This document shows positions 6,616-28,175 of a stretch of DNA of 38,213 nucleotides, piece after piece. Each line of letters starts with the position of its first letter. Positions within the stretch are counted from its first letter, which is position 1. Under the pieces are notes generated by a model. It saw nothing but the letters and a program-made list of their open reading frames with translations, was not told the origin of the DNA and ran no database searches. This stretch comes from a virus, in the IMG/VR virus record IMGVR_UViG_3300032294_001825, positions 1 to 38,213 of that record, one strand, 5' to 3'. Position numbers and translations under genes: made by a program.

Positions 6616-6935
6616 TACATCCCGCCTTCTTCAACCATCTTCTTCGTCTCTTCTAGTAATAAACGACGTCTTTCTTTATCTCTTTCAATTTCAGCTACTG
6701 CAGAATCTATTCTATCAAAATTATAGAAAAAGAACTGCAAAGGGTGTCCACCTTTAGGTAGGCTAAAGTAGTATATCAAAAGTTCTTTAGCACGATCAAG
6801 CCCTACGCTCTCAATAACATCTTGCATGGCCCATTTCTCACGAAACTTATTAAGCTGTGGAACCTTGCCATATTTTTCTTTATACAGAGACTGATAAAGT
6901 GTCATTAAGATATAAGGTGCTTTTTCATTTGCCAC
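6615..6935 (-). CDS. Small helical protein, candidate helicase loader
   Basis: A 106-residue, mostly helical protein whose stop overlaps the DnaB-type helicase start by one base. The sequence has a central aromatic block (GGHPLQFFFYNFDRI, about residues 62-76) and a highly charged C-terminal helix (EIERDKERRRLLLEETKKM). Small helicase loaders of Gram-positive phages often sit directly before the helicase gene and are of this size, so loader is the best guess by context. No Walker motif is present, which rules out a DnaC or DnaI-type ATPase. Unrecognised by sequence, so the function is inference. Confidence 0.55.
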   Translation of the reverse strand: MANEKAPYILMTLYQSLYKEKYGKVPQLNKFREKWAMQDVIESVGLDRAKELLIYYFSLPKGGHPLQFFFYNFDRIDSAVAEIERDKERRRLLLEETKKMVEEGGM

Positions 6936-7128
6936 GCTTTAACTCTTCTTCTACTTCACGAGTTTTTTCAATAAGCTTATCTTCAACAAACTTATATACT
7001 CTTTCTGTGGCATCATTGACATGCTCACCTTGACGAACATCATCTTCAACCCCAATACCTATTTTAATGCTTTCATAGTTACCAAGGTTGCGAGTAAACG
7101 ATAGGTCTACTTTAACTTTTGTTGTCAT
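6925..7128 (-). CDS. Small hypothetical protein of the replication operon
   Basis: A 67-residue protein. The N-terminal half looks like beta strands (VKVDLSFTRNLGNYESIKIGIGVED) and the C-terminal half is a charged helix (VEDKLIEKTREVEEELKRGK). It overlaps the next gene by 11 nt, and its start overlaps the preceding stop (TAATG), so it belongs to a tightly coupled operon. I do not recognise a family. The strand-then-helix pattern could mean a small adaptor. Confidence 0.65.
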   Translation of the reverse strand: MTTKVKVDLSFTRNLGNYESIKIGIGVEDDVRQGEHVNDATERVYKFVEDKLIEKTREVEEELKRGK

Positions 7129-7613
7129 TATTCCGCCTTCCAGACTGGGACAAACTTTCCTTCATTGGTCTTAGTATACAATATAACATTGCGTTTGAGA
7201 AGAGCCTGCAATTCTACCTTGCTAGGCAATTCTTTAGAATGTCCAGCATCTAATATAAATTGATGTAAATCCAATACATCAGACTCACTAAACATATACT
7301 TAGACCAATTTTTATGATCAGGATTACTTATTGGGTAAACCTTTTGAGGGGCTTTTATTTTACCTTCAAGAATATAATCTTCAATCGTAACTTTGTGCTT
7401 ACCCAAGATCAAGCTGACCTGAGTCATACTATATGCATTTTGCATATACTTCTCAACCTGAGCATAGGAGTATAATACTCTTTTACGGTCAGGATAGCAC
7501 CAAGCAATCAATTCATCTTTTGATCTATGAGCTTTAAGAACCTTATGGATCTTATCATTCAAGAAGAAATAGAGAAATCTTTTGCGTACTGATTTTCTTT
7601 TTTGTCTAGCCAT
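7128..7613 (-). CDS. HTH-like DNA-binding protein in the replication operon
   Basis: A 161-residue protein with a very basic N-terminus (RQKRKSVRKR). A central segment, MTQVSLILGKHKVTIEDYILEGKIKAP (about residues 63-90), looks like a MerR or excisionase-type helix-turn-helix, in which the protein recognises a site and a wing follows; the YMFSESDVLDLHQFI stretch continues that pattern. It may be a transcription factor or an origin-binding protein, and its place upstream of the helicase gene makes origin recognition attractive. The start has a short AGG Shine-Dalgarno and lies 55 nt inside the preceding gene. Confidence 0.65.
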   Translation of the reverse strand: MARQKRKSVRKRFLYFFLNDKIHKVLKAHRSKDELIAWCYPDRKRVLYSYAQVEKYMQNAYSMTQVSLILGKHKVTIEDYILEGKIKAPQKVYPISNPDHKNWSKYMFSESDVLDLHQFILDAGHSKELPSKVELQALLKRNVILYTKTNEGKFVPVWKAE

Positions 7614-7747
7614 CTACCTAGTGGGTTCGTTTCTTTATTAATCATCCAGCGTTTTCCGCATAGGATACAGAATAGTTCAGCATGAAGCTTCTGTGAAAAT
7701 ACTCTATCGATGAATACTCTTCCACCGCATTTCTTACATTTTATCAT
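7559..7747 (-). CDS. Small zinc-ribbon protein
   Basis: A 62-residue protein with two CxxC knuckles (C4/C7 and C27/C30), a classic zinc-ribbon arrangement, followed by a polar tail. Such ribbons bind nucleic acid or protein partners, and the target here is unknown. The start overlaps the stop of the metallophosphoesterase (TAATG). The 3' end overlaps the following HTH-like gene by 55 nt in another frame. Confidence 0.75.
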   Translation of the reverse strand: MIKCKKCGGRVFIDRVFSQKLHAELFCILCGKRWMINKETNPLGRWLDKKENQYAKDFSISS

Positions 7748-8550
7748 TATAGGCTAAACATCTTTCCATCAACTACACAGCTATAATTAGGAGACACATG
7801 AATCATTTGAACATGTGGATACTCTCCATTTTCAATATGTGCAATGGCAAACCCTTTTTGCCAATCATGATGCTGAGTATACTTCATACCTGGCCCCTTT
7901 TCATCACACATGTGACCTATTTCATAACCACGAAGAGTTTCCCCCTCACCATTATTTCTAAGCTCATATGTTACCATATGTGAAGCAATTCTGTGCGAGT
8001 GTCCTCTAATTAAAGACACCTGCATATCTTCCATATCTTTTCTTACAGAACCTGTTGCTGCAATTGAAATTCCATGGTGAACGTGTATGTCTCCGAAGCG
8101 GCGTTTAGGAAGTGAGTCATAATAAATATATTCATACCCTAATGAGTCAAGTGACCAGAGTGATTCTGGAGTAACATCTTTAGCATAGTCTGGAAGCTTC
8201 TTATCAATGTAATCAAAAATACGAATATCATGATTACCTAATGCTGAAAACAATTGTGCATCTGGAAGCATTTCTCGTGTCTTTGCATAAAAATCTCTTG
8301 CGCCCTTAGCCTCATGTCTCATCATCGGAACAATTAAATCACGACTATCATCTTTATGAAGCTGAAGAAATTCTGCTGAACGACCCTCTGTATATTTACT
8401 ATAACATGCCTGATCATCTGTATCGCCGAGATAATCAACCACGTCTGGCTTAAACCATTTCATAACCTTAAACCACAGTGCAATCATTTTATCATCCTGA
8501 TAAGGGAACTGCTGATCGGATGATAGCATCCACTTTAAATCATTACTCAT
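7747..8550 (-). CDS. Calcineurin-like metallophosphoesterase
   Basis: A 267-residue phosphoesterase with the ordered metal-binding motifs of the family: SSDQQ (D12, Q14), LGDTDD (D43), LGNHD (N106, H107), HVHHG (H156, H158) and RGHSH (H184, H186). The DxQ in place of the usual DxH at the first motif is a common variant. The substrate cannot be read from the sequence; a nuclease or nucleotide phosphatase in phage DNA metabolism would fit its place as first gene of the replication module. The start has AAAGGT 7 nt upstream of the ATG. A terminator lies directly upstream, so it probably needs readthrough or its own promoter. Confidence 0.9.
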   Translation of the reverse strand: MSNDLKWMLSSDQQFPYQDDKMIALWFKVMKWFKPDVVDYLGDTDDQACYSKYTEGRSAEFLQLHKDDSRDLIVPMMRHEAKGARDFYAKTREMLPDAQLFSALGNHDIRIFDYIDKKLPDYAKDVTPESLWSLDSLGYEYIYYDSLPKRRFGDIHVHHGISIAATGSVRKDMEDMQVSLIRGHSHRIASHMVTYELRNNGEGETLRGYEIGHMCDEKGPGMKYTQHHDWQKGFAIAHIENGEYPHVQMIHVSPNYSCVVDGKMFSL

Positions 8551-8570
8551 TAAAATACCTTTATACGAAA

Positions 8571-8592
8571 AAAGTCACGGGAACGTGACTTT
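8571..8592 (-). terminator. Rho-independent terminator ending the virion operon
   Basis: A 9-bp perfect stem (8571-8579 with 8584-8592) around a 4-nt loop, followed on the minus strand by six consecutive T residues. It is the clearest terminator in the window and marks the boundary between the tail/fibre genes and the replication genes. Confidence 0.85.
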
Positions 8593-8593
8593 G

Positions 8594-8616
8594 ATGTTAC
8601 ACCCTAAGTGTAACAT
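8594..8616. other. Perfect 9-bp inverted repeat (ATGTTACAC / GTGTAACAT)
   Basis: Arms at 8594-8602 and 8608-8616 flank a 5-nt spacer. It has no U-tract, so it is not a simple terminator. It overlaps the -10 box of a possible minus-strand promoter and could be an operator or an RNA hairpin. Confidence 0.6.
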
Positions 8617-8634
8617 ATTGGTTTAGGCTGTCAA
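8607..8634 (-). promoter_or_regulatory. Candidate promoter TTGACA-N16-TACACT
   Basis: A perfect -35 TTGACA (8629-8634) and a 4 of 6 -10 TACACT (8607-8612) lie just past the last tail gene and point toward the replication operon. The -10 is inside an inverted repeat, and any transcript would meet the 8571-8592 terminator within about 10 nt, so its use would imply attenuation or antitermination. It could also be chance. Confidence 0.35.
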
Positions 8635-8637
8635 GCC

Positions 8638-9036
8638 TTATTGATTCTTTTCGAAAGCTATCCAGTTAATTCTAACTGCATCTCTGCTTTTATTTGAAAT
8701 AACTCTAATTGAAGGTGCATTTCCTGCGCTAGCAATAGATACAGTTACTACTTCATCTTTTGCCAAAGAGCTTCCTACTGATGCAATAATAAACGGTGCT
8801 CCAGAAAAAGCTGCAGTTGTTACTACCTGTTCTGTATCAAAAACTCCTGCTGTAAGCTTACCAGTTAAATATGATCCACCATCAATCTTTAATGTATATT
8901 GATTATCTAATGATGCATTAGTTAAACCATTTACATCTGTGACCAGAGAAGTTATATTTGACTGTAAGTCCATCAGCTTTTGTGGGTCTAATGGTGCACC
9001 TGCATTAAATGTAACTGGCGTATATTTGTTTGTCAT
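8638..9036 (-). CDS. Probable distal tail or fibre protein
   Basis: A 132-residue protein. The N-terminal part has a short helical stretch (QKLMDLQSNITSLVTDVNGL) that could trimerise. The C-terminal part is Gly/Ala/Ser/Val-rich beta structure ending IRVISNKSRDAVRINWIAFEKNQ, a pattern seen at the ends of phage fibre and lectin-like domains. It is the last gene of the structural operon, directly before the terminator. No enzyme motif is present. Its role in receptor contact is inference from position and composition. Confidence 0.6.
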   Translation of the reverse strand: MTNKYTPVTFNAGAPLDPQKLMDLQSNITSLVTDVNGLTNASLDNQYTLKIDGGSYLTGKLTAGVFDTEQVVTTAAFSGAPFIIASVGSSLAKDEVVTVSIASAGNAPSIRVISNKSRDAVRINWIAFEKNQ

Positions 9037-11689: not shown

Positions 11690-13621
11690 TTAGCAAGTAG
11701 CACTTGAGCATGCTGTTCCAGCTCCTCCAGACCAGCAATCTGATGAGCCACCAAATCCGCTTGGGCAACAGAAGCCACCAGTAAGCTGTGACCTACTGCA
11801 TCTAAATAAGCTAGGTGTAGGTGTAGGAGTTGGTGTTGGTGTAGGTGTAGGCGTTGGTGTAGGTGTTGGTGTAGGTGTAGGTGTAGGTGTTGGTGTAGGT
11901 GTTGGTGTAGGTGTTGGCGTTGGTGTAGGTGTAGGAGTAGGAGTAGAAGGTGCACTAACTGATACATAATTAGATCTTGCAGTTGTAGAGCCCTTGCTAT
12001 TTGTTGCAGTAATTGCGATACGCAATAAACTTCCATATGTGCCTACGTAGAATGAAGGAGGTGAATAGGTAGCTCCAGTAGCTCCACCTATAGCTCCTGA
12101 GACTGCCTCCCATTGATAAGCGTAGGTTCCGCTTGGATCCCATGTACCAACAGTAGCTGCATAAGTTGTTACTCCAGCAGTGCCTGTTGTAGGTGTAACT
12201 TGTGGAGCGGCAGTATTAACTGGTGCTGTAAGAACCTTAGAAAGAACTACATTTGACTCTACTTGAGACGATGTTCCACCAGCATTTGTTGCTGTAGCAA
12301 AGGCTTTAAAATAATATGCAGGGGGAGCTGCATCAGCATCTGTTATTGTATATGTAAGTGAACTTGATGTTGTACTTGTTTTTAAAACTGTTCCAGTGGC
12401 TCCTGGAGAAGGAGGATTTGATGTAGAAACATATAATCCTAAATCATAAGATGTTGGCGAGTTGCTCCATCCTGAAGTTGATGCTGTTAAAGTTGTTCCA
12501 GCATACTGAGTTCCACTAGGAGATATGCTTACACTTCCACCAGAAGGAACGGGAATAACTGGTGCACTAACTGTTACGTAGCTAGCTCTTGCCGTAGCGG
12601 AGCCATTAGCATTTGTTGCTGTAACAGCAACTCGAAGAGCTGTTCCGTAAACGCTAACATAATTAGAGGGAGGCGTATAGCTACTTGATGTGGCACCAGA
12701 AATAGCTCCTGAAATTGCTTCCCATTGATACGAATAAGAGGTTGGCGAGTTGTCCCATGATCCGTTTGTTGTAGAGTAATTTGTACTTCCAGCAGTACCT
12801 GTTGATGGGCTTATTGATGGAGCTACTGTATTTATTGGTATCAAGACCTGATCTGTTTTGTTTGTCTGATAAGACAAATTACCAGAATACCCTGGATTAG
12901 CTGTTGATGTTCCGCTTATACCTTTAACGGCAATTTGATAAGTTGTGTTTTGAGATAAACCTGTTCCATCGCTTGTTTGAGAAATAGTAATACTTGTATT
13001 TGATGTATGTCTAAATGAATCCCAGGAGCCAGGACTTGATGGGTTATTATAATTTCTTATTTGATAAAGATATCCATTTGCATATAGCCCTCCAGTCCAA
13101 CTAAAACTTATACTTGAAGTTGTAGTAGATCCAGCAGTTATAGATAAATCTCTAACTCCTTCTACTTCTAATGTAGCTGACGATGAACTAGTTGTATTAT
13201 ATGTAGAATTAGTTGCAGATACAATAAACTCAAATGTATTTGTTACATTTGGCAATACATCTGTTGCTATTAATAAATATGTTTTTGTATTACTTACAGT
13301 AGGATTTGCTATTGTTCCTGTATCTAAAGTCGAATCAAAGGCACCTGGGGCATACCTATTAAAGCTATACTCTAATCCAGTTGAGTTAGTCCATTTATAA
13401 TTTGTTCCAGTTAATGTTATTAGCTTAGTTGTTGAATTAGTAGACTGAGATATTTCAACAGGCGAACTTATAGATGGAGATATTAAAGAAGTAAAAATTC
13501 TTCTCCATCCGTCTGCAGTCTTTAAATAAGCATTAACTATTCTTCTCCAGCCATCTGAAGTTTTTAAAAAACTTGAAACAGCTGATCTAAACCCATCGGA
13601 AGTTTTTAAATATATAGGCAT
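11690..13621 (-). CDS. Modular tail-fibre protein with Ig-like domains, Thr-Pro stalk and Cys-rich tip
   Basis: A 643-residue surface protein. In order: three 14-residue repeats (core YLKTSDGWRR, residues 4-45); a Ser/Thr-rich region; an FN3-like domain (about 155-240); two closely related Ig-like domains (about 266-354 and 471-557, both with QWEA, a Tyr-rich middle and TAR near the end) separated by another beta domain; 22 Thr-Pro dipeptides; and a final 40 residues with six cysteines including one CC pair. The layout reads as virion attachment site, spacer, rigid stalk and disulfide-held tip. AAGGA precedes the start. It probably contacts the host surface. Confidence 0.82.
   Translation of the reverse strand: MPIYLKTSDGFRSAVSSFLKTSDGWRRIVNAYLKTADGWRRIFTSLISPSISSPVEISQSTNSTTKLITLTGTNYKWTNSTGLEYSFNRYAPGAFDSTLDTGTIANPTVSNTKTYLLIATDVLPNVTNTFEFIVSATNSTYNTTSSSSATLEVEGVRDLSITAGSTTTSSISFSWTGGLYANGYLYQIRNYNNPSSPGSWDSFRHTSNTSITISQTSDGTGLSQNTTYQIAVKGISGTSTANPGYSGNLSYQTNKTDQVLIPINTVAPSISPSTGTAGSTNYSTTNGSWDNSPTSYSYQWEAISGAISGATSSSYTPPSNYVSVYGTALRVAVTATNANGSATARASYVTVSAPVIPVPSGGSVSISPSGTQYAGTTLTASTSGWSNSPTSYDLGLYVSTSNPPSPGATGTVLKTSTTSSSLTYTITDADAAPPAYYFKAFATATNAGGTSSQVESNVVLSKVLTAPVNTAAPQVTPTTGTAGVTTYAATVGTWDPSGTYAYQWEAVSGAIGGATGATYSPPSFYVGTYGSLLRIAITATNSKGSTTARSNYVSVSAPSTPTPTPTPTPTPTPTPTPTPTPTPTPTPTPTPTPTPTPTPTPTPSLFRCSRSQLTGGFCCPSGFGGSSDCWSGGAGTACSSATC
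11814..11945 (-). repeat. 22 tandem 6-bp units encoding (Thr-Pro)22
   Basis: On the plus strand the unit is GGTGTA or GGTGTT, with GGAGTA, GGAGTT and GGCGTT variants, 22 copies without a break (132 bp). In the fibre gene it reads as alternating Thr and Pro codons. Third-base variation among units shows that the peptide, not the DNA, is conserved. Slippage could change the stalk length. Confidence 0.95.
13487..13612 (-). repeat. Three 42-bp units encoding the YLKTSDGWRR repeat
   Basis: Residues 4-17, 18-31 and 32-45 of the fibre protein align as 14-residue units (YLKTSDGFRS, FLKTSDGWRR, YLKTADGWRR). They lie at the N-terminus, the end expected to attach to the virion. Confidence 0.85.
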
Positions 13622-13623
13622 AT

Positions 13624-15681
13624 TTAAATTCCTTGGCTTGCATCATATACTAATAAAACATCTCCGCTATTTGCGCTTGGATATATACCACTTACTAGAT
13701 TTCCTGAAGACACTGTATACATATTTCTTAATCCGCCAGACCTATAGGCATTTGTGGCAAGGGTGCTGGTACCGTCTGAAGCAGTAGTTCCATTTCCAGA
13801 TATTTGTGCAGACTTAATAACTTCTACTTGTCTTGTTGAGCTTCCTAATAATATTCTTAATGGTGAATCTGTAGCTCCAGATACTGATTCTGTTTTTAAT
13901 AAATTTAGTCCATTGCTAGCTTGAGATATAGTAAAATCAGTTTGATTAGCACTTGTCATAGTATAATCTCCGACTTTGATTCTAGCAGAACCACTTGAAA
14001 CTATGCCATCTGAATCAATAGACCAACGATTAGTATTTCCTCCAAAATATCCTCCTGTAGCATTTACTGTTCCTGTAATAGTAGCATTTGTTGCTGTAAC
14101 ACTTCCATCGTCAAGCACTTTAAATTGTCCGCTTGATCCAGCTTGAATTCTTAGACTTGTTTCTCCAGTTTTACCAGCAGAATATAAAAATATATTTCCA
14201 GATGGAGATGAAATACTGTCTGTATTTATTTCCCAGCCAGCAATCTTGCTTGTTCCAGAAGGACTTAAAGTTAATTTACCACTTTGATTTGCGCCACCAT
14301 CTGAGCTATGGAATAAGCCTCCTGACGGAGTTATTACAACCGCTGCACCTGTAGATGATCCAGCTCTAATTTGTCCAGAACTATCAATCTTAAATGTATT
14401 TCCAGAGTTTTGTAGCCCATCTGCTGCGATAGTAATTCCACCTATAGAGCCACCACTTGCAGTAATAGTTCCAGTAAATGATCCATCTGATGCAGACATT
14501 ATGCCATTAGAATCTACAGAGAATTTATTTGAAGATGTTGATATAGATGTTGCCGATAAAGATCCCTTTAGCGCAAGAGCGCCTGTGGCTAAGTCAAAAC
14601 CTAATGTCTCTGTGCTACCGCTGGAGTATGCGGTAAGACCTCTTTTTACTGTATTGCCGCCATTAGTAAAATTGTTAGTACCGCTTAATTCTATTCTTGC
14701 TCCGCCCGCTGAACCAACTCTAAGCCATGATGAAAATGATCCATTACCAGCAACTAAATTTTCAATAGATATCAACCCGTTTGCTAAATCTACTAAGTTT
14801 GCTTTTATTGGATTTACTGAAGATGAGTTAATTCGAGTATAAGTCGGGGAACCATATTTAACATCACTTCTATTTACTGAAACATAGTAAAAGAATATAT
14901 TTGATGTATATGCATCAGATGTTGATGTTAAGGACAGGGCCTGTTTTAAGTTGTCTAGTCCGACGTTAATTCTATTAGTTGTATCATTAACGGTTAGACT
15001 TCCAACCAAATTTGATTCTGAAATTCCAGAAGTTGTTGTTGACCCTAGATCAGATGATGCTGCATAAATATTAATTGATTTAAAACCTAAAAATGAATCT
15101 GATCCCGAATAAGATCCGTCCCAATTAACTGCAACAGCAAATGGGGCTGCAGATACAGATAATCCTGTTGGCAAATTAGGAGGTTCAATTGGTTCCGCAG
15201 CACTTGTTACCGTTACAGTTCTTGCTGTACTAAAAAATGACTGAGTTTTATTTGTACTAATTATTTTTAATTGAACAATATATATTCCAGGAGCTGCGAC
15301 AAATGTTTGTGTTCCAGATGTTCTAAAAGATCCAGCAGGCTTTGTGCCATCTCCAAATGTCGTTCCAGAGATATGAACATCTACCCTGTCAAGATTTGGT
15401 ATAACTGAACCAGATGCGACTGTTCCACCCCATGTTACTTTTATAAATCCTGCACCACCAACAACATCAGTTGTTAATAAAGTTGGTTCACTAGGGACAC
15501 CTAGTGCTGGTGGAGATATAGATCTTACTGCAGACCATACACTAAAAGTGCCATCTTTTCTTTTCCATCTGAATTGTATTGGATAAGACTGTCCAGCATC
15601 CAAGTCAGTAATTGTTAAAAGAAAATAATCTCCATTTTCAACATACTGAGATGTATCTTTTAACAGGTCCTGATATGCCAT
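13624..15681 (-). CDS. Minor tail or fibre protein with FN3-like and repeated beta-structured region
   Basis: A 685-residue virion protein. The N-terminal 160 residues contain an FN3-like module (WKRKDGTFSVWSAVRSIS), with a second around 170-290. The middle (about 370-600) has a repeating pattern such as GSFTGTITASGGSIGGI and KFSVDSNGIMSASDG, typical of the beta-rich shafts of phage fibres. The C-terminus (SGIYPSANSGDVLLVYDASQ) looks like a short cap. The stop is 2 nt before the next fibre gene, so the two fibres are probably co-translated. No enzymatic motif seen. Confidence 0.82.
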   Translation of the reverse strand: MAYQDLLKDTSQYVENGDYFLLTITDLDAGQSYPIQFRWKRKDGTFSVWSAVRSISPPALGVPSEPTLLTTDVVGGAGFIKVTWGGTVASGSVIPNLDRVDVHISGTTFGDGTKPAGSFRTSGTQTFVAAPGIYIVQLKIISTNKTQSFFSTARTVTVTSAAEPIEPPNLPTGLSVSAAPFAVAVNWDGSYSGSDSFLGFKSINIYAASSDLGSTTTSGISESNLVGSLTVNDTTNRINVGLDNLKQALSLTSTSDAYTSNIFFYYVSVNRSDVKYGSPTYTRINSSSVNPIKANLVDLANGLISIENLVAGNGSFSSWLRVGSAGGARIELSGTNNFTNGGNTVKRGLTAYSSGSTETLGFDLATGALALKGSLSATSISTSSNKFSVDSNGIMSASDGSFTGTITASGGSIGGITIAADGLQNSGNTFKIDSSGQIRAGSSTGAAVVITPSGGLFHSSDGGANQSGKLTLSPSGTSKIAGWEINTDSISSPSGNIFLYSAGKTGETSLRIQAGSSGQFKVLDDGSVTATNATITGTVNATGGYFGGNTNRWSIDSDGIVSSGSARIKVGDYTMTSANQTDFTISQASNGLNLLKTESVSGATDSPLRILLGSSTRQVEVIKSAQISGNGTTASDGTSTLATNAYRSGGLRNMYTVSSGNLVSGIYPSANSGDVLLVYDASQGI

Positions 15682-20809: not shown

Positions 20810-21243
20810 TATACCTGCTCCATTGATAAACTTACGCTCCAGTGTGGTTCAATGCCACGCTTAAGGACAACAAAAGATGCGCTAGTTATAGATACTGTAT
20901 ACTCCTCAAATCCTGAAGAAGACTGATCTGTTCCATTTGCGGCAAGGTTCACCTTTATATCAAAAGTTCCTTGACCACCTGAGCTATAATAAAAGTCTCT
21001 TAAATCTTTTGCCCCCCATCCTCCATCAACTGTTAAGGCTGATGTGTGTGGAAGCATTTCCCAAGAAAGAGTTATATTTCTTTTGTCTGCAATAAAAAAT
21101 TTACGCAATGTTCCATTGGACATGCGTTGCGTTCTTTCAATTCTTTGTGGGCTAATTGTAAATTCAGAGCGGTTATGTTCAGAAGTCTTATAATAGACTC
21201 CTCCTGATTTAATCCATAAAATGGATCCTCTAGGCATATTCAT
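20809..21243 (-). CDS. Distal tail-like protein
   Basis: A 144-residue beta-rich protein directly after the tape measure gene, where siphoviruses encode the distal tail (Dit) protein. It contains SPQRIERTQRMSNGTLRKFF and ITLSWEMLPHTSAL and ends in a strand pair (EPHWSVSLSMEQV), consistent with a tube-like fold. It is shorter than typical Dit proteins and lacks the galectin-like second domain. Start and stop overlap its neighbours by one base each. Confidence 0.72.
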   Translation of the reverse strand: MNMPRGSILWIKSGGVYYKTSEHNRSEFTISPQRIERTQRMSNGTLRKFFIADKRNITLSWEMLPHTSALTVDGGWGAKDLRDFYYSSGGQGTFDIKVNLAANGTDQSSSGFEEYTVSITSASFVVLKRGIEPHWSVSLSMEQV

Positions 21244-24200
21244 TAAATTAACCTCGCTCCTGGACTACCATTTGTAACCTTGTTATTATACTTCATATCC
21301 TTAATAGTTGCAATAGTTTTTCTTGTAATTGCTTCTGACAACTGTTCAACATTTAAATCAGTTCCAGTAATATAATTATTTACTGTATAAGAATCTTGTC
21401 CACCAGACATTTTTTGCTGATTATTAACACTATAAGCCATGTTAGGAAGTTTAAATTTAGCATCCAAGTTCTTGCTTTGGAAGTTATTTAATATCATCAT
21501 GTCAGTAGTAGGGATACCGTATTCTTTACCTTGTTCTCCAAATGAATGGAGCATGCCTTTTTTAGCAATTCCGCCACCCCAACGTACAATTGGGCCTCTA
21601 AACTTGTCTTCGAGCTCTCTCTTTTTTTGTGCAGAGCTTTGTTCAGATTTTGGTCTTTCAGTAGGGAAAGGTGGTTTTTTAGCATTAGTGCCAGCCAATA
21701 GATCTGACATAAACTTTGATTGTGAGTCAAAGTATTCTTTTGATGTAAGTGCAACCTTAAATGATTCTGCTAACTGTTTTCCTATTTCTGCTGGACTTAA
21801 CTGTAATTGCTGTCCAGTTAATATAGATGTTTTAGTTGTTTTTACTCCAGCTGGTAGCGTAAGTGCTGGATTTTCTTTTTGAATATCTTTAAATAACTGA
21901 TAAAGTGCAGCATAATCTGATGCAGGAATTTTTTGTCCTGCAGCCTTACCTTTTTCAACTGCTTCTAGTAAGCCTTTAAATGAATTTACTGCAGAAGCTA
22001 AAGAATTAACTTTAGGAGTAAGCTTATCTAGAGCATCTCCAGCCAAAGATGTGCTGTCTGATAGCTTTTGATTTTTTTCATTTAAGGCATCAATTTGTTT
22101 TTGAAGCGGTTCAATTCTTAATTCTGCATTTTTTTCTATAGAAGATACAGCAAGCTCTGTCTGTCTTTCTCCGCTCATTGATTTTATATCAAGTTGCGCT
22201 TGTGCGGCACGAGACATGTCTCCTGCTGCTAATGCATCTTGATACTCTATCTGCTTTTTTTGAATAGATAAAGTAAAGTTTTCAGTTCTCTGCCTTTCTT
22301 GAAGAGCTTTCTTTCGTGTATCCGCTTCTTCCTGAATTAACTTTATCTGCTTTTGCAAGGATTCTATTTGTTTTCTAGAATCAATTTGTTGTTTTGCAGA
22401 AATTCCTGCAGAACTTCTTTCTAATTTTTTCTGACGTTCTTGTAAATTATCAAGTAAATCATATGTGCTCTTTAGTTGACCACTCTTTAAATTAGACGTA
22501 ATAGATTTTTCAATAACAGCATTCATCTTATAAAGTGCATCTACTCCAGCATCAGATAAAACAGATAAATCAACAGTTGTGCCTTGAATTAGTAACTGAT
22601 ACTTTTGCCAAACAGATCTAATGGAGTCAGTTGAGTTTAGTACTCTACCTAATTCTGGCATCTGCTTTTGAACTTCAGTTAATGTGCTATTGCTTAGTCT
22701 TGCCTGATCACCAGCCAAGGAGTTTATCTTTTCAAACTGTTGTGCAGTAGCTTCCTGATAAGTAAGATTATCTTTGGACTTACGCATGATCTCATCAATA
22801 CCAGCATTTATTCCATTGATAGCTGACTGCAATGCTGCATAAGATGCTTGTGAATTTCCTGTTGCTTCCGCTTGAGTAAATGATCTAACGCTAAATGCTG
22901 CTGCTGTTTCTAGACTTTGAATTGATCCAAAGTCTTTGCTTCCTATTGCTGATCCAGCTAAGCCAACTTTATTTGAGGCTGCTATTAAGGCAAAAGTTTT
23001 CTTGGTAGCTTCGTCTGCTGCATCTCCTGCCTGCATAAACATTGTTTTTAATCTAATTGCTAAATCGCCAACATCTCTGGACTTTGTTTGGTTTACAAGC
23101 TTTACTAATTCTGGCATTGTTGATTTAACTTCTTCTTTAAGCTTTCTGTACTCTTCAATTGTAAGCTTTAACGGTGTGCCAGCGCTTGTAATACTTGCAT
23201 AAACTAACCTATTCTTTTCAGCTAAGGCTTCATTATTTTTTATAGCTTCTTTTAGTGTTAAATTTAAATCTTTATAATTTAATCCAGCCTTTGCTGCTGC
23301 TTCTGAAGTAAGAGCAAATCCTAGGGCTTGGGTTTTTAGTTGATCATTATAATTTTTATAAGCTTTATATGCTAATGTTAATGCTCCTACAGTTGCGCCA
23401 ATTGCTACATTTGTTTTAGTAAATATTTGAGCAGCAGTTAAGAATTCTCTGCTCTTAAGCATTTGTAATAACTGTGGAAGGAATCCTCCAGCAATTGAAC
23501 CAACCATTCCGCCAATTGGTCCAGCAATTGATTGACCAATCATTCCTCCGCCGATTGAACCACCTACTGCACCGACTGTTGACACTAATCCTGATGCAGG
23601 CTTAACCACTCCGCCATCTTCAAACCTTTGCATTTTGTTGTTTGGAATTATTCCGCCACTATTTCTTGGCACAAAAAGCTCTGGGCCTTTTTCTCCAACT
23701 ATATAAGGCTGTCCAGCATTAACTGGTCCACCCATTGCTCTTGCTTCCGCAATGGTTTCAATTTGAAGTGCACCATTTTTATAACCAACAATCTTAAACT
23801 TCCCACCAAAAATTGCTTCCTGCTCAGGTCTTTCTAGTCCTCCGCCAAACTTTCCTGTTGGATAGTCTTGTCCGTATGGTGCCCTAAATACTCTTTTAGG
23901 GAATAAATCTCCAGCTGGAACAATGTTTCTATTTCTAACTGCAGCCTCTAATAATATTGATCCTGGATCAGAGCCACGCTTTGCAAAGTAGTTCGCAATC
24001 ATCTTGTCTTTGCTCCAAGACGATCTACGCATTATAAATTCTTTACCTAATAGCTTGTTCCAATCTCCAGTTTCTTTTGCCTGAAGTATTGCTTTTTCTA
24101 TATGCTTAGGTAATGCATTTTGTGTTTGTCCAGCTAATATTCCTCTATAAAGTTTTCCGCTAAACTTTTGCTGTATAGCTTTCATGGCAGCTATTGGACC

Positions 24201-27200
24201 CAGTGGATGGTTTCCTAATGTTTCCATCTGAGACATTATGTCTAAGTCACCAGCCATGTATCTTGATGTAGAATACATTCCACGTCTTTGTTCATCTCCA
24301 GTTAAAAATGCAGGAGCCGTAGTCATTCTACTAAATTGGTCTCTGTATAGTATACTTTCTCTAGGATATTTTGTAGGATCGTATCCTGCAAAACTCTTAA
24401 GATTTTGAGACATTCCAATTTGAAGTGGGCCGTGTAATGGATCTTGATTGCCTAATCTATACTGGTGTCCTTGTGGATAAAATTGTTTTTTACCAGGCCA
24501 TCTAGAAGTAAGTCTTTCAATAACATTTTTTGGTAAGCCAGGTATTCTGCCGCCAACTCTATACCCTGGAATCATTCCTCCAGAATTTGCTGTAAAGTAG
24601 GAATTTAATTTTGCAATAAATGGGTTGGCTTCTTCTTTAGTATGATAAAACTTATTTGAGCCAGATGACTCTAGGTTTGCAAAATTTGCTGTCTTTCCGT
24701 TTAATGTTAATTTATTTAAGAAATTGCTTGAGCTTCTATATTTTGCATCTGCGAAGCCTCCTGGCTGTCTAGAATATTCTTGCCAAAATGCTAGCGCATC
24801 TGGGTTATTAGAAAATTCTTTTAATAATATTTCATTAGAGACACTCCACATTGGATTGTTATTGTCTGAAACTTTTTCCATGCCAAGTATTCTCTTTGCA
24901 TAAGCGCTAAAAGCTTTTTTAGAAATCTTTCTGTATTCTTGTTTAGAAATAATTCCAGATTGCGCTAATCCAGATAAAAATACATCTGTAGATGTTCTAG
25001 CTCCACCACCCCTTGCATTTATAGATGCTAAAAGAACTTGTGGGTCTACACCAATAGTCTCCATATCTTTATTAATTTTTGCTGTACTTGCTGAGAAATT
25101 ACGACTTTGTGCATGTCCGCCAAATACTCCTGCGTTTCCTTTTGGCTCATATTCTGATTTTGGAGCAGATCCATGCTTTCCAAATACAGATCTCCAATTT
25201 TTTTGTATTTCTGGAGTTGAAAGTAGCTTTCTTCCACGAGGAGTTAGTCTTGCTATTAATCCTCCTAGGTTCCTACCTTGTACTGGGACAATTTTTGCTT
25301 GTCCAGCATTAAGAGCTCTCATGCCATCTGGATCTTGTTGAGCTATATCTCTTCTAATTACAAATTCACCAGGAGTCAACATTGCTGGAACAACATCAGC
25401 GTTTACATTAGGTCCTGGAACTTGGTCTCCATTATTATAAAATACATCTCCGCCAGCGTTTAATCTTCTAGGCTTTGTTGTTTCAATACTGTATCCGCCG
25501 CCTGAAGTTCTTACTCCAAGGCCTCTTGCAATTTTATCTACAAGTGCTGAAGTTTTGCTCTTGTGGAACATTTCCTTCATGTTTGATTTTCCTGTTACTG
25601 GGTCTACAACTGGTTGTCCAGTAAGAGGAACTGCGCCTAAGTTAACAGTTCTTCCTTGAGATGCAGCAACAGATGCGGCAGTTTCTGCCATCATTGCTTC
25701 AATTCTTGCGTTTAATTGAATAACCTTGGCTCTAGCTTGATCTACTGTTATTTTGCTTGCTTCTAAATCAGCCACTATGAGTCTGGATTGTTCTGCAGCC
25801 AAAGTTGTAATGTTTGTCATTTTTGGTAGAAGAGCTTGATAAGAGGTAGATAATTCTGTTGTAACTGCTCCTGTAGCAGCAACTTCTTTCTTTAATAACG
25901 CTATTTCTTCTTGTGATTGCATTGCAAGAGCAGCTGTCATAGAATGCCATTTGGCCGCTTCATCTGCAACAATACCTGTAGAGACTTTTCCAATTTCTGT
26001 AATACCTGGAACTCTAGGAAGTTCTCCAGTCATATAAATTTGTGGGTTCTTGCCAATTCTTTGGTTTACTGGCGCTGGTCCTGGCACAACACCAAATATA
26101 TTTTGTGCCGACTTTTCTTCAGTTGTCATACCAGCAACTGGTCGTGTATGAGACATTTGTCTAGAATAAGGTTTGCCTATATATGGACTTGTTGGGTCAG
26201 CTACTCTTCCTGAACCTTCCATAACCACATTACCTGCAATTGTAGATATAAGTGGTTGTGCAGATACTGTTCCAGCCACCGCCTTTTGCTGTAAAATTGT
26301 ATACTCATTAGATAGGTTTGCTAATGCAGCAGATAATATTTTTGCTGCTTGAGCATCGCTGTAAAATGTTTGTTCAATTAAGCTACCAGCTTGCTCTGCA
26401 GCTAAAATTTGAGGAGTAAGTAATTTAAATCCTTCTCCTCCTCGGCCCAATGCTCTTAGGTGTCCAATGCCCTTAATTACATAGCCAATAAAGTTAGCAA
26501 ATACACCAGTAAGCATGATGAGTGGGCCTGCAAGTGCTGTTATGCCACCAAGTAATCCTAATAAGTTTTTAACTGGGTCTGGAAGCTTGGTAGCAAACTT
26601 AATTACTCCGTCAACTATCTTAATAAAGAATGTTCCAATTTCAAGGAACTGCTCTCCTAGTCCTGCTAAGCTAGCCTTTAAACTTTCAATTGCTCTCTTG
26701 TATTGTCCTGAAGCAGATTCAGTAATTTGTGCTAATTCTCGACCAGCAACATTTGCAAGATCTTGTGAGCTTGCTTTCATTAGATCCAGAACCTGAAGGG
26801 TCTGGCTTCCCTGCTTTCCTAGGTTTTCAAACAAAGCATTCATTCTAGCAAACTGGAACTTGCCGAATAGCTGTTCAATTGCTTGTGACTTCTTTAATGG
26901 ATCTAAAGCATCTAATGCTGATTGAATTGATAAAATAGTTTGTGTTAAGTTTCCAGCATTTTTATTTACAATTCCTTCAAGATCTATTCCAAATCCAAGG
27001 AACTGTTCTTTTGCTACCTTAGTAGGATTAATAATAGATGCAAGTGCTGACTTTAATGCGTTAGCGCCTTCTGATGCATTAACTCCGCCTTCACGCATTG
27101 CTGTAAGATATAGTGCTAGATCTTGAACGTCTCCGCCTAATGCTTTAACTACTGGACCTGCTTTTGGAATTGCTTCAACTAAATCTGCAAGGCTTGTTGA

Positions 27201-28175
27201 TGTTTGGTTTTCAACTGCGTTAAGAAAGTTAATTGATTCTGTAAGCTCTTCTGTGTTTTGCTTAAATGCAGATTGAATAGCCAAGGTAGCTTTCATTGCT
27301 TCCTGTCGATCAACTTCACCTAAAATAGAAAGTCTTGTAGCTTCTCTTGTAGACTTGAGTAATTCGTTACCCTGTTTGCCAGTTGCTGCAATATCAGCAG
27401 CTAATGCAATTGTATCTTTAAATGAAGCTCCATACATTCCAGCAAGCTCTCTGGCTGTATCTGAAACGTCTTTGCGAACTTTAGCTAACTCTTGTGAGCT
27501 TGTTTCTGCTAATCCGCCATAAACTTTTTGAAGTCTTACAAGCTCTTGATCTGCTTCTCTAAATGCTTTTGCTGAGGCCGCTCCAAATGCGGCTAGTGGT
27601 ACGGTTAGTCCTACTGTTAACTGACGGCCTGCCCATTGGGTATTCTTACCCCAGTTAATTAACTGAACACCACCGTCTTGAATTACCTTATTGTAAATCT
27701 GTAATTCTTTTCTTGCTAATGCAGTTTTGCTAACTGTTTCGTCTATTCCATTTGCAACATGAACATTAAACTTCATCATTCCATCGGCGGCTTTACCTAA
27801 TGGCTGCACAATAGCGTTTTGTAGAGCTACCTGCTGCTTAGCTAAATCTCTTATTAATCCGCCTGAAGTTTTAGTATGAGTTTGCCATGTTCTAAAATAG
27901 TCACCAAGCTTGAGCTTACCAGCATCTAGCTTTTTACCGAATGTCTCTACCTCAGAGCCAACGGTAACAAAATGCGTTGTAAACTGGCCAGTGCTTCTAA
28001 GTGTTTCTCCGAACGACTTTTGAATCTGGCCAGCTTGCGCCGCTAATGCTTTATTAGATAAACTTAATTCTGCTTGTAATTTTGATAAGGCAGATGTAGT
28101 CCTTTGCACATCTGCAATAAGACCTGAAAAATCTGACGTTGCAACTACATTGGTTACAATCTTTTCATCAGCCAT
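21243..28175 (-). CDS. Tape measure protein with inserted globular domains, one ADP-ribosyltransferase-like
   Basis: A 2310-residue protein that sets tail length and is ejected with DNA. The N-terminus is helical; residues about 190-400 match the TP901-type core (RKDVSDTARELAGMYGASFK). Hydrophobic segments lie near 520-570 and a glycine-rich one near 1529-1575. Gly-rich motifs punctuate the centre: GGDVFYNNGDQVPGP (about 908), GGLI (970), GGMIPGYRVGG (1200) and GGPVNAGQPYIVGEKGPELF (1480). Between them are two globular insertions: about 975-1198 of unknown type, and about 1216-1480, ART-like with R1344, S1386/S1388 and E1451/E1453. Residues about 1900-2035 are a long coiled coil. The start follows the G-T stop by 9 nt. 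Confidence 0.95.
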   Translation of the reverse strand: MADEKIVTNVVATSDFSGLIADVQRTTSALSKLQAELSLSNKALAAQAGQIQKSFGETLRSTGQFTTHFVTVGSEVETFGKKLDAGKLKLGDYFRTWQTHTKTSGGLIRDLAKQQVALQNAIVQPLGKAADGMMKFNVHVANGIDETVSKTALARKELQIYNKVIQDGGVQLINWGKNTQWAGRQLTVGLTVPLAAFGAASAKAFREADQELVRLQKVYGGLAETSSQELAKVRKDVSDTARELAGMYGASFKDTIALAADIAATGKQGNELLKSTREATRLSILGEVDRQEAMKATLAIQSAFKQNTEELTESINFLNAVENQTSTSLADLVEAIPKAGPVVKALGGDVQDLALYLTAMREGGVNASEGANALKSALASIINPTKVAKEQFLGFGIDLEGIVNKNAGNLTQTILSIQSALDALDPLKKSQAIEQLFGKFQFARMNALFENLGKQGSQTLQVLDLMKASSQDLANVAGRELAQITESASGQYKRAIESLKASLAGLGEQFLEIGTFFIKIVDGVIKFATKLPDPVKNLLGLLGGITALAGPLIMLTGVFANFIGYVIKGIGHLRALGRGGEGFKLLTPQILAAEQAGSLIEQTFYSDAQAAKILSAALANLSNEYTILQQKAVAGTVSAQPLISTIAGNVVMEGSGRVADPTSPYIGKPYSRQMSHTRPVAGMTTEEKSAQNIFGVVPGPAPVNQRIGKNPQIYMTGELPRVPGITEIGKVSTGIVADEAAKWHSMTAALAMQSQEEIALLKKEVAATGAVTTELSTSYQALLPKMTNITTLAAEQSRLIVADLEASKITVDQARAKVIQLNARIEAMMAETAASVAASQGRTVNLGAVPLTGQPVVDPVTGKSNMKEMFHKSKTSALVDKIARGLGVRTSGGGYSIETTKPRRLNAGGDVFYNNGDQVPGPNVNADVVPAMLTPGEFVIRRDIAQQDPDGMRALNAGQAKIVPVQGRNLGGLIARLTPRGRKLLSTPEIQKNWRSVFGKHGSAPKSEYEPKGNAGVFGGHAQSRNFSASTAKINKDMETIGVDPQVLLASINARGGGARTSTDVFLSGLAQSGIISKQEYRKISKKAFSAYAKRILGMEKVSDNNNPMWSVSNEILLKEFSNNPDALAFWQEYSRQPGGFADAKYRSSSNFLNKLTLNGKTANFANLESSGSNKFYHTKEEANPFIAKLNSYFTANSGGMIPGYRVGGRIPGLPKNVIERLTSRWPGKKQFYPQGHQYRLGNQDPLHGPLQIGMSQNLKSFAGYDPTKYPRESILYRDQFSRMTTAPAFLTGDEQRRGMYSTSRYMAGDLDIMSQMETLGNHPLGPIAAMKAIQQKFSGKLYRGILAGQTQNALPKHIEKAILQAKETGDWNKLLGKEFIMRRSSWSKDKMIANYFAKRGSDPGSILLEAAVRNRNIVPAGDLFPKRVFRAPYGQDYPTGKFGGGLERPEQEAIFGGKFKIVGYKNGALQIETIAEARAMGGPVNAGQPYIVGEKGPELFVPRNSGGIIPNNKMQRFEDGGVVKPASGLVSTVGAVGGSIGGGMIGQSIAGPIGGMVGSIAGGFLPQLLQMLKSREFLTAAQIFTKTNVAIGATVGALTLAYKAYKNYNDQLKTQALGFALTSEAAAKAGLNYKDLNLTLKEAIKNNEALAEKNRLVYASITSAGTPLKLTIEEYRKLKEEVKSTMPELVKLVNQTKSRDVGDLAIRLKTMFMQAGDAADEATKKTFALIAASNKVGLAGSAIGSKDFGSIQSLETAAAFSVRSFTQAEATGNSQASYAALQSAINGINAGIDEIMRKSKDNLTYQEATAQQFEKINSLAGDQARLSNSTLTEVQKQMPELGRVLNSTDSIRSVWQKYQLLIQGTTVDLSVLSDAGVDALYKMNAVIEKSITSNLKSGQLKSTYDLLDNLQERQKKLERSSAGISAKQQIDSRKQIESLQKQIKLIQEEADTRKKALQERQRTENFTLSIQKKQIEYQDALAAGDMSRAAQAQLDIKSMSGERQTELAVSSIEKNAELRIEPLQKQIDALNEKNQKLSDSTSLAGDALDKLTPKVNSLASAVNSFKGLLEAVEKGKAAGQKIPASDYAALYQLFKDIQKENPALTLPAGVKTTKTSILTGQQLQLSPAEIGKQLAESFKVALTSKEYFDSQSKFMSDLLAGTNAKKPPFPTERPKSEQSSAQKKRELEDKFRGPIVRWGGGIAKKGMLHSFGEQGKEYGIPTTDMMILNNFQSKNLDAKFKLPNMAYSVNNQQKMSGGQDSYTVNNYITGTDLNVEQLSEAITRKTIATIKDMKYNNKVTNGSPGARLI
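23790..24530 (-). other. ADP-ribosyltransferase-like domain within the tape measure protein
   Basis: Residues about 1216-1462 carry the R-S-E signature in the right order: KLYRGI (R1344), a Phe-Ile-rich strand then RRSSWSKDKMIANYFA (S1386-W-S1388, followed by the helix expected after the STS motif), SILLEAAVRNRNIVPAG as the next strand, and RPEQEAIFGGKFKIVGY with E1451-Q-E1453, where the second Glu would be catalytic. In known arginine-specific ARTs the ExE and a final FKV strand are arranged this way. Function is inferred; the canonical STS is SWS here. Confidence 0.65.

Follow-up and report, generated by a model that had tools for sequence, protein, structure and literature searches.

A putative ADP-ribosyltransferase domain in an exchangeable slot of a siphophage tape measure protein

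Why would a tape measure protein, the ruler of a phage tail, contain what looks like an enzyme? The question is raised by IMG/VR record IMGVR_UViG_3300032294_001825, a tailed-phage fragment of 38,213 nucleotides that was analysed over its whole length (hereafter the window). Its tape measure protein (TMP) is encoded by an open reading frame (ORF) of 2310 amino acids that starts with ATG and occupies 21243..28175 on the minus strand, as do all window features given below. Matches to Pfam (PF10145, E=1e-26), NCBIfam (TIGR01760, E=2e-29) and PHROGs (phrog_10030, E=1e-123) establish its identity. An earlier note, made from the DNA letters alone, had pointed to an ADP-ribosyltransferase (ART) signature within this ORF. 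We consider it probable that TMP residues ~1212-1486 (23718..24542; well-modelled core ~1291-1476) are a divergent R-S-ExE ART, carried as host-modifying cargo of an ejected TMP.

The case begins with five residues. R1344 (codon at 24144..24146) belongs to a first ART motif, LYRG; S1386-W-S1388 (24012..24020) forms an STS-like second motif; and E1451-Q-E1453 (23817..23825) supplies an ExE third motif. All five residues that had been named blind (R1344, S1386, S1388, E1451 and E1453) lie exactly where they were said to be and are present in every homologue. Together with W1387, they are invariant in 41/41 non-redundant sequences that share 34-61% identity with the window. The 41-sequence alignment, spanning 275 window residues, has 41 invariant columns, and five random positions would all fall in such columns with a chance of ~6e-5. 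This conservation is decisive evidence that the observation is real. Further, the domain is under purifying selection: the ratio of nonsynonymous to synonymous substitution rates (dN/dS) has a median of 0.14 over 19 pairs.

The motif on its own proves nothing, because each shuffled version of the TMP would contain a loose R..SxS..ExE pattern about 1.8 times on average, and it was consequently rejected as stand-alone evidence for an ART. A stricter pattern (LxRG[VIL]..SxS..ExE..G..strand), fitted only after the family had been seen, occurs in 13/13 domain-bearing TMPs, nowhere in the other TMPs (~140,000 residues) and in 0/200 shuffles. These TMPs come from a TMP-core search that returned 80 relatives, 12 of which carry the domain in addition to the window. 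An alignment-based scan of IMG/VR for the ART-like domain returned 50 loci. At 49 of them the domain profile matches within an ORF, and in 48 of these 49 the same ORF holds the TMP N-terminus. At the 49th locus (L116, ~6775-8759) the N-terminus and the domain lie in different frames, reflecting a frameshift or assembly error, while L088 is a contig fragment without a TMP N-terminus where context is not checkable. Wherever context could be checked among these loci, the domain is encoded within TMPs. The 84,980 bacterial and archaeal genomes searched, including their prophages, yielded no relative at the sensitivity used, and neither did a tblastn search of cultured phage records.

Fold prediction agrees with the proposal of a separate ART-like domain. 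An AlphaFold2 model built from the 41-row alignment has a mean predicted local distance difference test score (pLDDT) of 71 and a predicted template modelling score (pTM) of 0.65, with means over ten-residue blocks of mostly 65-93 in the core (model residues 80-265). Its elements run helix, helix, R-strand, helix, SxS-strand, helix, strands, ExE-strand, which is the order found in R-S-E ARTs. As in that clade, the arginine (R1344) sits on a first strand (predicted strand 125-136), which is followed by helix 146-158. The SWS triplet ends predicted strand 168-177, ahead of helix 180-186, and E1451 and E1453 open predicted strand 242-255, where the E/QxE of the ADP-ribosylating toxin turn-turn (ARTT) loop is expected. 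Searched against the PDB with Foldseek, the model returned ARTs as the best 19 of 183 matches (prob 0.77-1.00), among them Vis, Certhrax, iota Ia, CDTa and BECa. The best E-value belongs to Vis (4xzj, E=5e-4, prob 0.99); Certhrax reaches prob 1.00 with a target-normalised TM-score (TMt) of 0.50, and iota Ia and CDTa reach prob ~1.0. The first non-ART match is unrelated (E=0.7). Against BFVD, the model matched an annotated Gordonia phage ART (E=2e-5, prob 1.00) and other ART-annotated entries. The 243-aa ORF orf14 of Gordonia phage GMA2 (L141:14328-15059), which lies in a structural cluster and is annotated as hypothetical in GenBank, has the length of the ART named in the BFVD match A0A0K0N738. 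A profile-profile comparison of the domain with this GMA2 candidate was not significant.

Several results weigh against the assignment. Model residues 17-76 mostly fall below pLDDT 50. The superpositions are loose, with query-normalised TM-scores (TMq) of 0.28-0.41 among ART matches, a best TMt to a solved structure of 0.50, and root-mean-square deviations of ~6 A or more. The ART-like domain matches no Pfam or PDB sequence profile, and an hhalign comparison with an 8-sequence alignment of T4 Alt was not significant (prob 1.7%, P=0.03; shuffled controls reach 1.6%). Searches of PHROGs and NCBIfam with the domain were likewise without a match. The match to ART folds that the earlier note had asked for was obtained with Foldseek; at the level of sequence, none of the 13 members matches PF03496, PF01129 or related Pfam ART families at E<=10. 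Taken together, the model and the catalytic signature support residues ~1212-1486 as a predicted ART, and as a new family by sequence, because no sequence profile links the domain to any described ART.

What such an enzyme would modify is a further question. The fold and the invariant triad would equally fit any R-S-E ART or NAD glycohydrolase, and the domain could be an active member of the superfamily that is no Alt-type protein modifier. It might instead consume NAD+ or modify a nucleic acid or nucleotide signal, for example blunting NAD-based anti-phage defence at entry. Virion-borne NAD/ADP-ribose enzymes that counter restriction have indeed been proposed for phages (PMC9503650). However, a search of the window TMP turned up no macrodomain, Nudix or NADAR domain as a partner. 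The third motif is also of the ExE form, generally associated with transfer to arginine, rather than QxE. We regard this alternative as unlikely, though the most serious of those considered here, and continue to favour a modifier of host protein.

The setting of the domain bears on its purpose. Aligned to the window TMP, its 80 relatives give near-complete coverage up to residue ~900; this drops to ~12/80 over 1020-1460 and rises again after 1500. This variable slot lies between the conserved N-terminal half of the TMP, which includes the PF10145 PhageMin_Tail core (residues 238-438; 26862..27464; E=1.1e-26), and a conserved C-terminal section (residues ~1590-2030; 22086..23408) that is present in ~60/80 relatives. 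It begins with an upstream module, of which many unrelated types exist, followed by optional cargo and then, in cargo-bearing TMPs, usually by GGPVNAGxPYxVGExGPExFVP. In the window, the upstream module spans residues 963-1196 (24588..25289) and has phmmer matches in relatives, with no match in Pfam or PHROG. The Gly-rich linkers that had been proposed to bound the domain are real and flank an exchangeable slot. GGMIPGYRVGG covers residues 1199-1209 (24549..24581), and GGPVNAG, from residue 1482, opens the conserved downstream linker GGPVNAGQPYIVGEKGPELFVPRNSGGIIPN (residues 1482-1513; 23637..23732; phrog_30701), which is shared with TMPs bearing other modules.

Exchange at this position can be read directly from the relatives. 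The ART is found in 13 of the 81 TMPs, a module of ~335 aa in 16, where it is usually followed by a helical module (module C), and module C alone in 7, while others bear none; since the relatives were picked for their closeness to the window, these fractions are not prevalences. The ART never co-occurs with either the 335-aa module or module C. Placed on a tree of the TMP core, the ART label has to be gained or lost at least five times and the 335-aa module label at least four. The upstream module of the window recurs in L016, which has no cargo, and in L033, where module C takes the position of the ART; weaker versions are present in L066, L025, L051 and L064. The region between the Gly-rich linkers is an exchangeable cargo slot. 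The variable stretch as a whole ranges from 330 to 1021 aa in complete TMPs, with the remainder of the protein mostly 1646-1825 aa (outliers ~1984-2179) and L073, a short ORF, excluded. Across the TMPs of L003-L082, length outside the slot is near-constant while the slot varies threefold, which predicts that cargo does not count towards the tail-length ruler. In L004, a TMP that also bears the ART, the later part of the protein (12812-14377) carries CHAP and LysM domains.

The alternative occupant of the slot is also enzyme-like. The 335-aa module (L063:7265-8269; also L030, L039, L049 and L074) lies in the slot that holds the ART in the window, and is represented at no fewer than 119 IMG/VR loci. 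The invariance of K74, RGDKDL..N162 and D170, and the near-invariance of E85, had led to a kinase-like reading before any folding. AlphaFold2 then gave a model of pLDDT 78 and pTM 0.74 whose best Foldseek matches are CtkA (E=6e-4, prob 0.99), HipA and protein kinases, and we interpret the module as a putative HipA/CtkA-like kinase. Module C, helix-rich by sequence, either follows the kinase module (L063:8264-8833) or occurs alone (L012, L033, L052, L053, L057, L067 and L068). A leader motif (LxIG-like) shared between cargo modules was suspected but is unsupported by profile comparison. That two unrelated enzymes of protein-modifying type occupy one slot is the strongest argument that the slot serves cargo.

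These observations also bear on whether the ART fold might have been kept for a structural role without catalysis. The domain does lie within a structural protein, and its activity is a prediction. However, its catalytic residues are all invariant across deep divergence, the alternative occupant retains conserved kinase residues, and some relatives, such as L016, leave the slot unoccupied, so the domain is not structurally needed. A purely structural role seems very improbable to us, and catalytic cargo remains the favoured interpretation.

We lean, by a narrow measure, towards a broader view in which this group of siphophages, probably actinobacterial, uses its TMPs as modular carriers of effectors. 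Each TMP would combine a fixed ruler with an exchangeable bay of host-modifying enzymes (the ART, the HipA/CtkA-like kinase with its helical partner module, and others) that lie unfolded in the tube, are threaded into the host and refold there. The delivery, activity and target of the ART-like domain are points that we infer. Its injection is plausible by analogy with known TMP behaviour: in T5 the TMP that is expelled, pb2, includes a muralytic domain (PMC10038345), and the TMP of JBD30 has been proposed to be ejected and to form a membrane channel (PMC11445458). TMP molecules occupy the tail tube and leave it when the phage infects, so each infection would bring several copies of the enzyme into the cell envelope or the cytoplasm, either ahead of the DNA or along with it. 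Passage would presumably be unfolded or partly folded, with refolding after exit, given that the density of the JBD30 TMP measures only ~20 A across inside the tube; flexible Gly-rich linkers would fit such a passage. Once inside, the ART may use NAD+ to ADP-ribosylate a host protein, with arginine as the likeliest acceptor judging from the ExE motif, in a modification that would favour the phage in the first minutes of infection. RNA polymerase is a reasonable first candidate target, by analogy with T4 Alt only.

Action late in infection would give the TMP location a different meaning. The domain might work in the virion-producing cell, for instance on host or tail proteins before assembly, with no connection to injection. 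The gene belongs to a late structural cassette (portal, capsid, tail tube), and the TMP should therefore be abundant late in infection. A stand-alone gene, however, would be the simpler solution for such a task, and fusion to ejected proteins is the usual route for early-acting enzymes (PMC5512222). We judge late action improbable, and prefer delivery at the start of infection.

The genomic neighbourhood is that of a tailed phage. Genes for a DNA polymerase, a single-stranded DNA-binding protein, the portal, a maturation protease and the major capsid protein surround the TMP ORF, as does an Ig-domain gene that probably encodes the tail tube. The TMP gene lies between the tail chaperones and minor tail genes, as expected of a TMP. 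The closest cultured relatives are Streptomyces siphophages of the Stanwilliamsviridae (61% identity in the capsid, ~41% in the TMP core), and the host is thus probably actinobacterial. The order Ig-domain protein, chaperones, TMP, minor tail is the same in the window, Yaboi and Coruscant. The TMPs of the cultured Streptomyces relatives contain an M23 peptidase and lack the ART and kinase modules.

Virion-borne ARTs are known in kind, from T4 heads (Alt), MuF/portal fusions and polyvalent proteins (PMC9503650, PMC5512222, PMC7302621, PMC9206674). What is new here is the family and its vehicle, the TMP, for which we found no earlier report. The word 'tape' is absent from a survey of NAD/ADP-ribose functions in 21,191 viral proteomes; the survey ties virion-delivered ARTs mainly to contractile phages and suggests that siphophages are less well equipped for such injection (PMC9503650). 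In the literature searched, mostly outside subscription journals, the texts consulted that name both a tape measure and an ADP-ribosyltransferase treat them as separate genes, and neither an ART nor a kinase is reported within a TMP; to that extent the earlier note, which knew of no described ART of this kind, is borne out. An ART, or its kinase alternative, in an ejected siphophage ruler would represent a concrete route to early host takeover for non-contractile phages. If the effector-carrier view is true, non-contractile tails would have a protein-injection route. An enzyme reporter would make TMP entry into the cytoplasm a testable question, and an ART-bearing TMP would be a natural template for placing cargo in a phage tail.

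Comparison with known systems places the window ART among several precedents. T4 Alt is likewise a phage ART in the virion, with a predicted role at the onset of infection (PMC5512222, PMC9503650), and its sequence contains LYR, STS and ExE motifs. However, Alt is a separate head protein injected with the DNA, whereas the window ART lies inside a tail TMP and profile comparison gives no link between the two. The MuF-VIP2/ART fusions of phage heads, which include those of actinophages Percival, Goodman and Johann and of phage AXL1 (PMC7302621, PMC9206674), also join an ART to a virion structural protein. Their vehicle is the head/portal-associated MuF, and their ARTs are recognised by VIP2 models, none of which recognises that of the window. 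The closest solved folds by Foldseek, those of Vis, Certhrax, iota Ia and CDTa, share 14-19% identity with the domain in structural alignments and no profile-level similarity. TMPs with peptidoglycan hydrolase domains, such as T5 pb2 (PMC10038345) and the M23-bearing TMPs of Streptomyces phages Yaboi and Coruscant, similarly place an enzymatic domain in an ejected TMP. Those domains open the cell wall, whereas host molecules inside the cell would be the substrates of the ART and kinase modules. Tme of the Streptomyces contractile injection systems is a TMP homologue with an effector enzyme domain, in that case an endonuclease at the C-terminus, and it works in a bacterial injection system, not in phage infection (PMC11126660).

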